Source: Verrucomicrobiota bacterium (lineage in GTDB: Bacteria; Verrucomicrobiota; Verrucomicrobiia; Verrucomicrobiales; DEV007). Taken from it: a stretch of DNA of 43,427 nt. The notes beneath the pieces were generated by a model. That model worked only from the letters and a program-made list of their open reading frames with translations, was not told the DNA's origin and did not search any database. How positions within the stretch are numbered: the first letter of the stretch is position 1; every line of letters starts with the position of its first letter. The translations under genes and the position numbers were made by a program. The stretch is from NCBI GenBank assembly GCA_002862135.1, contig PKCI01000063.1, positions 1-43,427 of the forward strand, read 5' to 3'. Of the stretch, positions 15,208 through 18,454 are shown piece after piece.

Positions 15208-17034
15208 CTAGCCTAACATCAAGCGATCAATCATCGCATTGACCTTTTCGGATGAGAGACCCGGCACAGCTTCGAGGTCGTCAAAAGTTTCAAACGGACG
15301 ATACTCAATGATGGCTTCGGCCAGTTTTGGACCAATACCCGGCAGCGTCTGCAACTCCTCTGCGGTAGCGTGATTCATGTCAATCACCGGACCAGAGGGA
15401 GCACAGGCTTCGTCATCGTGAAAACCATCATCATAGTCATCATGGGCCGCTGGTGCTCCATCGGATTTATCCGCTTCAGCAGACTCCCCTTCACGATCTG
15501 TGGAATCTTCGTCCACAGGCTCGAGGTCTTCTTTTTCGACATGATCACTTTCGAACCCTTCGTCTTCGCGATTCGACCGGTCCTGATTTGACTTTGAATC
15601 GTCGCCTTCGCCGTGGTGATGGTCATCGTAGTGACCGTCGTGGTCGTCTTCGTGCCAACTTTCGTCGAACTCAGCATGATCCGCATCAAAGTCGTAATGC
15701 TCATCGTGTTCCTGACCAAGGTAGCTATCACGCGCTACAGTCTCATCGTTGCCGTGGTCGGCACGATCACTATGATCGTCGTCATAGAGATGGGCGTGCT
15801 CCTTCTCATACTGTTCGATCTCCGCTTTGTGGATCTCGGACTTTTCCACCTCGCTCAGGTCGTCAGGATTCTTGGAATAGAGCTGCTCCAGGCGGGTCAT
15901 TTTAGCCTGTTCTTCGGCCAGCATCTTTTTCTCACGACCTCGCTCAATGAAGGAGGCAATGATGATACAGATTTCGTATAGCAGGATCATCGGCCCAGCG
16001 AGGAGACCCAGGGTCATTAGGTCAGGCGGCGTCAATATGGCCGCCGCAACCATAATGATAATCCACGCGTAAGTCCGGGTCGCCCGCATCACACGAGCGG
16101 TGAGCAGTTCAAGCTTCACCAAAATCGAAACCACCACCGGAAGCTGGAAACTGATGCCGAAGACGAGGACTAGTCGCGAAATAAACGCAATATATTCGCC
16201 GATGCGGTAGAGACTTCTTCCGCCTTTGGATTCGACCAGGACAAGCATGTCTCGAGAATCATCGTAGCGCAGGGCGAAATTGGAACTTTGCATGGTCGCG
16301 AACGAATTCTTGATCGCTTCGCGAACTTCCTCACGCATCTCATTGGTCAGCTCGCTCGGGGCGTCCGTATCTTCTTCGGCCTTCGGCTTATCGCCGTCTT
16401 CACCGACAGGCTCGTAAATTTTGCCATCCGCTCCCAGCAGAGAGAAATCCGCAATTGGTTTCTCCATGGCATCGCGAGTGGGATCGATCGAGGCAATTCG
16501 CTCATTTTCGAAGATGTAAAAAAACTTCAACGCGACCGGCGCTGCCATGAAAAATGCGAAACATACACCGACCAGAAAGAGGATGAACCCCACCAGTGCT
16601 CCCGGAATGATGGCTTTCTTTTCGACCTGTCGCAGACCGGGCAGGATGAATTGAAAGCCAAAATAGAGAAGAAAGGGGAAAGAAATGATCACACCGCTGA
16701 AGAACGATAGTTTCAACATCAGGACGATGAATTCTGGCGGACTCAGCGTAATAAGGTCGAGCCGGTCCCACAGCGACACACCATCGGAAATGTTGGCAAT
16801 TGGCATCTTTGCCGGGAGCTGGATCAATTCGAAGATTTTCTTATGAAAAGCAAAACAGGCCACGGTCGCGATTGCGAGTGTCGCGCCGATCTTCATCAGC
16901 GTGTGCCGAAGATCCTCCAGGTGATCTAGAAACGGCTTCTCGTGCGCATCGAAGCCGTCATCAGCCCCCGGGCGTGCTTTGCCCGCGGATTCACGAATGT
17001 GGAATAGTTTTTCGAACGCTGTCTTCAGTATCAT
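15208..17034 (-). CDS. tatC: TatC translocase with long His/Asp-rich tail and C-terminal helix-hairpin-helix domain
   Basis: This is the core membrane subunit of twin-arginine translocation, but at 608 residues it is over twice the usual 250. The TatC part is clear: FLDHLEDLRHTL at about 35-46, SPPEFIVLMLKLSFFSG near 98-114, ILPGLRQVEKK, and YAWIIIMVAAAILTPPDLM before the last helix. An insert of about 100 residues (175-278) sits between helices 3 and 4, in the second periplasmic loop. After helix 6 comes a charged coiled-coil-like stretch, then a His/Asp/Glu-rich linker (about 408-550) and a ComEA-like helix-hairpin-helix (550-607: MNHATAEELQTLPGIGPKLA). Both termini should be cytoplasmic. 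A GTG at 17064 with GAGG upstream could add ten residues. tatA and tatB are not in view. Confidence 0.93.
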   Translation of the reverse strand: MILKTAFEKLFHIRESAGKARPGADDGFDAHEKPFLDHLEDLRHTLMKIGATLAIATVACFAFHKKIFELIQLPAKMPIANISDGVSLWDRLDLITLSPPEFIVLMLKLSFFSGVIISFPFLLYFGFQFILPGLRQVEKKAIIPGALVGFILFLVGVCFAFFMAAPVALKFFYIFENERIASIDPTRDAMEKPIADFSLLGADGKIYEPVGEDGDKPKAEEDTDAPSELTNEMREEVREAIKNSFATMQSSNFALRYDDSRDMLVLVESKGGRSLYRIGEYIAFISRLVLVFGISFQLPVVVSILVKLELLTARVMRATRTYAWIIIMVAAAILTPPDLMTLGLLAGPMILLYEICIIIASFIERGREKKMLAEEQAKMTRLEQLYSKNPDDLSEVEKSEIHKAEIEQYEKEHAHLYDDDHSDRADHGNDETVARDSYLGQEHDEHYDFDADHAEFDESWHEDDHDGHYDDHHHGEGDDSKSNQDRSNREDEGFESDHVEKEDLEPVDEDSTDREGESAEADKSDGAPAAHDDYDDGFHDDEACAPSGPVIDMNHATAEELQTLPGIGPKLAEAIIEYRPFETFDDLEAVPGLSSEKVNAMIDRLMLG

Positions 17035-17274
17035 GAAAAGATTCAATTTTTGAAGGGTTGCCACCTTAGCCTCTTTTTAAAAAACGGCAAAGAGACGCAA
17101 CAGGAGGTCAGTAAATGCGTGATGTTTTGCCTGAATTTTCCAAAAAATCTGGCGTTATCCTCCCCTCTCGACTTGCAAACGGGCCCCCAAATGATAGGTA
17201 GATTTGCTCGGAACTGCAGTTTGGTGGCCTATTTCGGCCCCCGGAAGGAACCCATAGGAGGACAGACAAGACAG

Positions 17275-17517
17275 ATGATCGGTTACGATGAGGATAAGCG
17301 TGGCTCGCAGAATAATCATGCAATTCACACGGAGAAGGTGGTCGCGGACCGGAAGATTTTCTTCCTCGACCTAAAAGAAAATGACCGCGGTCAATTCGTG
17401 AAAATCACCGAAGACGTGCGCGGACGCCGTGATACCATCATGGTGCCAGCCGAGGTCCTTGGCGATTTCATCGATGCGCTCCAAGCCGTCGAAGAAGCTG
17501 CCGAAGGCGAAGAATAA
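17275..17517 (+). CDS. Small PUR-domain (DUF3276-type) nucleic-acid-binding protein
   Basis: This 80-residue protein looks like a single PUR repeat of the PUR-alpha/DUF3276 family known from Bacteroidetes and spirochaetes (for example Borrelia BpuR). The core is VVADRKIFFLDLKENDRGQF followed by VKITEDVRGRRDTIMVPAEV. Such proteins form dimers and bind single-stranded DNA or RNA. The start is fixed by the only in-frame ATG at 17275; an AGGAGG lies upstream at a long spacing of about 14 bases. The acidic tail ends in EEAAEGEE. It is divergent from tatC and 61 bases upstream of yicC, so it may lead that operon. The family call is from memory of the motif pattern. Confidence 0.82.
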   Translation: MIGYDEDKRGSQNNHAIHTEKVVADRKIFFLDLKENDRGQFVKITEDVRGRRDTIMVPAEVLGDFIDALQAVEEAAEGEE

Positions 17518-17578: not shown

Positions 17579-18454
17579 ATGCGCAGCATGACCGGATTCG
17601 GTCGTGGTGAAACCACGACTGGCGGATGGAAAATTGAAGTGGAGCTCTCCGGTGTCAACCGGAAGCAGGTCGACATCTCAGTCAATCTCCCCAACTCCCT
17701 CCTCGAATTTGAGGCTGAAGCGCGGAAACTGCTTTCCGATGCAATCTCACGTGGACGAGTTGGTGCCAAGGTTACCCTCACTCACAGTGGTGGCACTGAG
17801 AATCGCCTCGCTTTCGACCAGAAAATGGCGGCGCATTACGTCGAAGCCGCAAAGTCTCTCTCTCGAAGCACCGGTATCGAGACTCGACTCACTGCCGCTG
17901 ACTTGCTCCGCGCCCCGGGACTTTTCAAAGTCGAGGAGACTATCGCCGATCCCTCTGATATCAAGCCAGCACTCTTTGAGGCCCTTGAGCAAGCTCTCGA
18001 ACAACTCCTCGCCATGCAGCAGCAAGAAGGCGAACATCTCCGCAGCGACCTGCTCGCTCGCATCGAAACCATTGTTGCGGAGGTCAGTAAGATTGAAGAA
18101 CTCGCGCCGACCGTGAAGGAAAGTTACCGCGACAGCCTCCACACCCGCCTCGCTGAAGCTGGGCTCGATGTTGATCTCAACGACGAGCGCCTCCTTCGCG
18201 AAATCGGAATCTTCGCTGAGCGCTGCGATATCTCCGAGGAAATAACCCGCATCGAAAGCCACGTGACTCAGTTCCGTTCCTACATCGAAAGCGACGACCC
18301 TGCGGGGCGCCCTCTCGATTTCCTATGTCAGGAATTTAATCGCGAGCTCAACACCATCGGTAGCAAGGCCAACGACGCCGCCATTGCCCAAGGAGTCGTG
18401 AATTCCAAGACGGAACTCGAGAAAATCCGCGAGCAGGTCCAGAACATACAGTAA
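17579..18454 (+). CDS. yicC: YicC family endoribonuclease
   Basis: This 291-residue protein has the family N-terminus MRSMTGFGRGE and the C-terminal DUF1732 block RPLDFLCQEFNRELNTIGSK, followed by TELEKIREQVQNIQ. The family (YicC in E. coli, YloC in Bacillus) has been reported as a metal-dependent endoribonuclease. The ATG at 17579 has no Shine-Dalgarno sequence and follows CTTTATATC directly. As in many bacteria it lies close upstream of gmk, here with one small gene between. Length is normal and no residue is obviously missing. Confidence 0.95.
   Translation: MRSMTGFGRGETTTGGWKIEVELSGVNRKQVDISVNLPNSLLEFEAEARKLLSDAISRGRVGAKVTLTHSGGTENRLAFDQKMAAHYVEAAKSLSRSTGIETRLTAADLLRAPGLFKVEETIADPSDIKPALFEALEQALEQLLAMQQQEGEHLRSDLLARIETIVAEVSKIEELAPTVKESYRDSLHTRLAEAGLDVDLNDERLLREIGIFAERCDISEEITRIESHVTQFRSYIESDDPAGRPLDFLCQEFNRELNTIGSKANDAAIAQGVVNSKTELEKIREQVQNIQ

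Follow-up and report, generated by a model that had tools for sequence, protein, structure and literature searches.

The window, a stretch of 43,427 nucleotides from a Verrucomicrobiota bacterium, contains a tatC gene whose product joins an ordinary TatC core to an unusual appendage that is fixed in its lineage; the appendage is real and conserved. TatC is the core component of the Tat machinery, by which folded proteins are exported. Beyond the transmembrane helices TM4-TM6, which end at about residue 368, the protein continues as a tail of about 240 residues that closes with a helix-hairpin-helix (HHH) domain of the type found in ComEA. The gene, its parts and its neighbors lie as follows.

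15208..17034, minus strand: tatC-HHH gene, with its ATG at 17034 and an uninterrupted frame of 608 amino acids plus stop.
16507..17034, minus strand: residues 1-176, N-terminal segment and TM1-TM3 (Pfam TatC match at residues 37-175; alignment to A. aeolicus 4b4a).
16216..16506, minus strand: residues 177-273, insert in the second periplasmic (P2) loop (alignment, AlphaFold2).
15931..16215, minus strand: residues 274-368, TM4-TM6 (the second stretches of the PDB and NCBIfam alignments start at residues 273-278).
15781..15930, minus strand: residues 369-418, charged cytoplasmic helices (AlphaFold2, 339-387 and 395-412; genus alignment).
15784..15822, minus strand: residues 405-417, the EIEQYEKEHAHLY motif, echoed as Y-x-REHAHLF/Y in the tails of family f3.
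15415..15780, minus strand: residues 419-540, disordered linker rich in Asp, Glu and His (composition; pLDDT).
15211..15414, minus strand: residues 541-608, ComEA-type (HhH)2 domain with a Cys arm (C544) (Pfam, PDB profile search, AlphaFold2, Foldseek).
17050..17517, plus strand: gene for a PurA-type ssDNA/RNA-binding protein, divergent from tatC (PF04845, E = 7.2e-10); its true start is probably inside this interval.
17579..18454, plus strand: yicC-like endoribonuclease gene (domain search, locus comparison).

A Pfam scan of the 608-residue protein matched TatC in two parts (E = 2.6e-53, above the cut-off; PF00902 score 181.4 bits against a cut-off of 25.1), and the NCBIfam tatC model TIGR00945 scored 154.7 against a cut-off of 132.7. 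HHH_3 was matched at residues 550-603 (E = 6.8e-15, above the Pfam cut-off). No second TatC was found in the window's genome, and the HHH of TatC is the sole above-cut-off HHH_3 match there. The AlphaFold2 model of the full protein, made from a genus alignment of 29 rows, had a mean pLDDT of 62.9 and a pTM of 0.43. It contains six TatC helices, the last of them a long helix (residues 339-387), and a separate helix at 395-412; these helices and the two-part alignment support six transmembrane helices. D41 and E138 pair with conserved Glu residues of A. aeolicus TatC in the 4b4a alignment and are invariant in 29 of the 29 genus TatC sequences; we take them to be the signal-peptide-binding sites known as E15 and E103 in E. 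coli. Canonical TatC (PF00902/TIGR00945; E. coli, A. aeolicus 4b4a) shares the six-helix core and the acidic residues conserved in it, and the window's core is probably a working one that transports Tat substrates. Canonical TatC has only a short C-terminal tail, however, with no P2 insert and no HHH. In known TatC proteins TM6 leads into the cytosol (C-in topology), and the HHH, placed after TM6, is by analogy probably cytosolic.

A sequence-only reading of this DNA had claimed that a single frame holds a complete six-helix TatC and a long tail, made of a charged helix, an Asp/Glu/His-rich stretch and a ComEA-like helix-hairpin-helix. The Pfam parts and the AlphaFold2 model bear out the frame and its six helices, and Pfam, composition and AlphaFold2 agree on the make-up of the tail. 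Structure prediction of the tail and the loop insert, which that reading had proposed, gave a folded HHH, a disordered linker and a poorly modeled insert (AlphaFold2). An assembly error, or absence of the tail from all close relatives, had been named beforehand as what would refute the fusion; the tail is kept, as the following counts show.

Our same-genus sample comprised 33 genomes including the window's own; 29 of these have TatC, with the HHH in the TatC frame in all 29, and the four without TatC are 63-86% complete. This shared frame rules out an assembly or frameshift error that joined two genes. Three named MAG records carry tatC-HHH in the same frame as well, and since the dN/dS of the HHH is also low (0-0.14, see below), the architecture is neither chance nor misassembly. 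In the family we searched 74 genomes, of which 66 have a TatC match and 8 do not (rows read by hand). HHH-TatC is present in 44 of the 66 TatC-bearing genomes, in one frame in 42 of them and inferred across contig ends in two (G075, where two contig-end pieces share an identical 47-residue overlap, and G079, where there is no overlap). Among the 22 family genomes without HHH, a local scan of 15 loci found none (0/15; one locus, L083, runs off its contig), and the other seven have no HHH among the matches listed. Five other families of the order yielded no HHH in 28 loci (29 TatC frames). The idea that the HHH tail is general in the phylum was rejected: in a sample of 87 genomes, which included one genome of the window's family (f1) and 11 without any match, only the window's own genome has HHH in a TatC frame. 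A scan of contigs returned four loci, three from close relatives and one a gammaproteobacterial TatC of 276 codons. A 3035-base contig of family f5 (L040) carries two neighboring TatC frames, of which one is truncated where the contig stops. No TatC with an HHH tail is reported in the titles and abstract beginnings of the open-access papers listed by our searches, and the accessible portion of PMC3827258 does not mention the architecture; TatCt, followed as a lead, led to nothing. As far as open-access literature searches go, HHH-TatC is undescribed.

We made a TatC tree of 69 rows from the 284 columns in which 90% or more of the rows have a residue, a filter that excludes the HHH columns. The tree omits 15 of the genus's 29 rows, duplicates of fetched loci (L030-L033, L055), one cut sequence (L062), and three members of families f2 and f5 (L037, L040, L048). 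The HHH-bearing rows form one clade (support 99/94), on which the HHH label changes once; the root of the tree is unsure because the outgroup branch is very long (5.0). The clade spans eight sampled genera (g1, g18, g19, g20, g21, g24, g26 and g29), all of which keep the HHH, and one gain suffices. A tree of the HHH domain itself was rejected as proof of a single origin, because with 68 columns its split between TatC and free domains is supported only 28/52, and the claim therefore rests on the TatC tree. Within the genus, mean pairwise identity is 68% in TM1-3, 78% in TM4-6, 66% in the helix at 369-418 and 63% in the HHH, as against 46% in the P2 insert and 43% in the linker, which is least conserved. 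The dN/dS of the HHH is 0-0.14 in the 7 pairs, out of 11, whose dS could be computed, though several dS values approach saturation. The computable ratios of the other parts are 0.00-0.15 (core), 0.05-0.30 (P2 insert) and 0.05-0.42 (linker). The HHH is under purifying selection.

The HHH is folded in the AlphaFold2 model, with a pLDDT of 82-88 per ten-residue block over residues 551-600 and 66 over the last eight residues of the full-length model, as against values below 50 over nearly all of 421-545. A separate AlphaFold2 model of the domain (44 rows) had a mean pLDDT of 82.5 and the compact (HhH)2 fold of ComEA. The best Foldseek match of this model was Geobacillus ComEA (8dss; 0.9 A over 62 columns, E = 1.5e-3), followed by Thermus 2duy and then PsbU. 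No Foldseek match of this small domain is better than E = 0.001, so the fold assignment leans on sequence too. In a sequence search of PDB the best match was 9yi2, an endonuclease/exonuclease/phosphatase family protein, followed by 2duy and ComEA chains, with PsbU and DNA polymerase X as further matches. Four positions (N, L, G and R) are invariant among the 44 TatC-HHH domains, and a Cys stands just ahead of the HHH in 40 of them. The domain thus resembles ComEA (8dss, 8dfk, 2duy) in fold and in sequence, but differs from it in being fused to TatC, probably cytosolic and acidic on average, in lacking the DNA-contact Lys, and in falling below the cut-offs of the full comEA models (39.9 against 152.35 for TIGR01259; 42.8 against 53.1 for TIGR00426).

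According to the accessible text of PMC9747964 and PMC3879209, ComEA depends on a Lys that immediately precedes the Ala in its first hairpin; this residue is K164 in B. subtilis and K63 in V. cholerae. At the equivalent position the 44 TatC-HHH domains have L (26), M (15), D (2) or I (1), and never K or R (0/44); the window's residue is L571. For comparison we hand-picked from the search lists 20 free HHH proteins (11 from the window's genus, 6 from other genera of the family and 3 from family f4), which have T in 16 cases and M, K, R and I once each. With K/R in just 2 of 20 free domains, this site sets both groups apart from true ComEA and not from each other. The third residue of the GxG hairpin is not Gly in 9 of the 44 TatC-HHH domains, compared to 1 of the 20 free ones. 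Net charge over the whole domain is -16 to -1 in TatC-HHH (mean -7.4) against -1 to +8 in free HHH (mean +2.4). Restricted to a 48-residue core, the net charge is -10 to +3 (mean -2.3; 28 negative, 6 zero and 10 positive) against -1 to +6 (mean +2.4), so the charge contrast is strong on the whole domain and weaker on the core.

These properties bear on what the module does. Our preferred reading, which we hold at about even odds, is a working TatC that carries a ComEA-type (HhH)2 protein-docking module on a long, disordered, acidic cytosolic arm. Because the ComEA Lys is absent throughout, GxG is lost in nine domains and the domain is on average acidic, we infer that the HHH binds protein rather than DNA. 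The conservation of the HHH well above the linker, the single label change and the low dN/dS also speak for docking, and the maintenance of the domain by selection on the TatC arm is suggestive of an additional docking role within the cell. PsbU of photosystem II, which has the same fold and comes next after ComEA in the fold search, offers a parallel: it is a separate extrinsic lumenal subunit that docks in a membrane protein complex and does not sit on DNA. Should the core of the translocase be a trimer of TatC, as the accessible text of PMC13323110 describes for E. coli, Nitratifractor salsuginis and Myxococcus xanthus, each complex would carry three HHH modules. These would lie within reach of the substrate entry face, where they might recruit or orient a cytosolic partner, be it a client, a chaperone, TatA or another TatC tail.

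The sequence-only reading had left open whether the tail tethers DNA or a protein; the protein option is the one favored by the data above, and the DNA option is disfavored. A DNA or RNA tether, by which the HHH would keep the translocase close to the nucleoid or to client mRNA, strikes us as distinctly unlikely, for all that several observations point its way and count against docking. The nearest solved folds are ComEA proteins, a nuclease-family protein is the best PDB sequence match with ComEA and DNA polymerase X further down, 35 of 44 domains keep GxG, the free HHH proteins mostly lack the K164-equivalent as well, and the contrast in core charge is the smaller one. HhH domains contact phosphate mainly through the backbone, as stated in the accessible part of PMC9747964, and the divergent neighbor of tatC in 26 of 29 genus loci is the PurA-type nucleic-acid-binding gene (it adjoins tatC in both g19 loci too). 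Against a tether stand the Lys and GxG losses and the placing of an acidic domain on a very acidic arm.

We think it unlikely that the acidic tail alone matters, as an electrostatic arm that attracts basic twin-arginine regions or crowds the cytosolic face, with interchangeable caps or oligomerizers at its tip. Acidic tails whose tip modules differ do occur over most of the tree, but the HHH is conserved beyond its linker and kept in every sampled genus of the clade, and genus g4 of family f2 manages with roughly 25 tail residues in L044; the tails of L037 and L048 are of comparable length. Acidic tails are therefore common in the order but not universal. Very improbable in our view is a metal buffer, in which the linker would bind Zn, Ni or Cu for metalloprotein clients or metal sensing and the HHH would be an end cap. 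The linker is 14% His (and 37% Asp/Glu) over the genus, some family f2 tails reach 13-15% His, and the Cys ahead of the HHH is frequent; yet the tree's nine tails from f4 and f6 have 0-4% His while staying acidic, and no part of the protein is less conserved than the linker. Across tree rows, post-TM6 tails are 16-47% Asp/Glu and 0-15% His (L064, mis-cut by the alignment though its tail is acidic too, was excluded, and the tails of L067, L069 and L083 are shortened by contig ends), so that acidity is steadier than His content and metal binding is unlikely as a shared function. We likewise give little credence to the view that the fused domain is an inherited ornament on which selection acts solely through folding and stability. 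The four invariant positions of the HHH look structural, as it would predict, but one stop codon could remove a dispensable tip, and the HHH is present in the sampled TatC-bearing genomes of the clade.

Tip modules differ among the acidic tails of the order. A search of the window's own genome with the linker returned itself alone, and the idea of a linker common to other proteins of that genome was rejected. In L075, L076, L078, L080 and L084-L087 the tail ends in an ELKA-repeat (E-L-K-A-like) helix in place of the HHH; by eye, such tails occur in family genera g15, g17, g23, g25, g27 and g28. The TatC of genus g2 (L035:895-2424) ends in a weakly SAP-like stretch that is below the Pfam cut-off (E = 0.011) and is a hint, and nothing was recognized at the tips of other family tails (tips read by eye; Pfam covered 10 proteins of the family and order). 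A family f2 TatC (L096:1005-2888) has a tail of tandem repeats like HDEHGHPIDYD. Sequences near Y-x-R/K-EHAHL-Y/F, matching the motif at residues 405-417, occur in most g1 rows and in g19 (EHADL), g20 (EHEHL), g21 and g26, and reappear in 5 of 6 family f3 rows. Similar motifs were seen in the tails of L038, L050, L052, L054 and L095, from distant families of the order. Their position relative to the His-rich stretch varies between tails; despite this, homology across families appears likely, and the recurring motif could be a shared linear binding motif.

The HHH is associated with the number of TatA/B genes, which we regard as a lead and not a result. Among 72 family genomes surveyed, 61 have TatA/B matches. 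Genera with HHH have one TatA/B gene in 33 of 42 genomes and two in 9, whereas genera without it have two in 18 of 19 (adjacent, on the same contig) and one in a single genome (G033). Seven of the nine HHH genomes with two genes have adjacent pairs (g19, g26, g29 and one g21), and the remaining two, both g1, have them on different contigs. Fisher's test gives p = 5e-8 but ignores ancestry; since the HHH arose once, the independent evidence is the repeated change in TatA/B number (counted as 7 across 39 rows, with G033 and the two g1 genomes among them). Genera g19, g26 and g29 keep both genes despite having HHH. The TatA of the window's genome is an ordinary protein of 84 residues encoded on another contig (match at G000:C46:8753-8905). 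In one scenario, which we consider quite improbable, the tail of TatC serves the Verrucomicrobiales as an exchangeable receptor platform in the cytosol, tipped once with HHH and elsewhere with the ELKA-repeat helix. Within the HHH clade this platform would have assumed some of the tasks of the second TatA/B paralog, which was then lost in several genera. If true, cytosolic recruitment in such a Tat system would be provided by TatC itself.

TatC is usually viewed as a bare six-helix receptor partnered by TatA and TatB. A lineage with a fixed, folded and probably cytosolic module on TatC, and often a single TatA/B gene, is a natural experiment on how Tat clients are recruited and on the need for TatB. 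The docking question can be tested directly, since arm and module can be produced on their own to serve as bait. As for clients, twin-arginine leaders had been noted on two proteins in the window, and they are visible by eye in the sulfatase (...KRREFIKKAG...) and the DUF1501 protein (...SRREMLKG...), but none of the 26 genome-wide Pfam TAT_signal matches at E <= 0.1 lies in the window.

The other extra, the P2 insert, is 97 residues long and lies between TM3 and TM4. An acidic insert of about 100 residues had been claimed here, and in the genus it is indeed acidic on average (net charge -15 to +2). AlphaFold2 models it poorly (pLDDT 38-63). The insert profile, built on 28 of 29 sequences of the genus, had as its best PDB chain a VirG-like protein at E = 0.16; in this sequence comparison no PDB chain matched at E < 0.1, so a kinship to solved structures, including the inserts of N. 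salsuginis and M. xanthus, was rejected. In the accessible text of PMC13323110, the TatC proteins of these two species, within the (TatBC)3 complex, likewise have large periplasmic-loop inserts (disordered in N. salsuginis, and a homotrimer in M. xanthus), which makes the loop insert a known kind of variation; that text mentions no C-terminal domain, in contrast to the window's TatC. The statement that normal TatC has neither extra goes too far as regards the loop insert and acidic tails as such. Periplasmic loops vary even inside the HHH clade: most members have the P2 insert, g24 has none, and g29 has an insert in P1.
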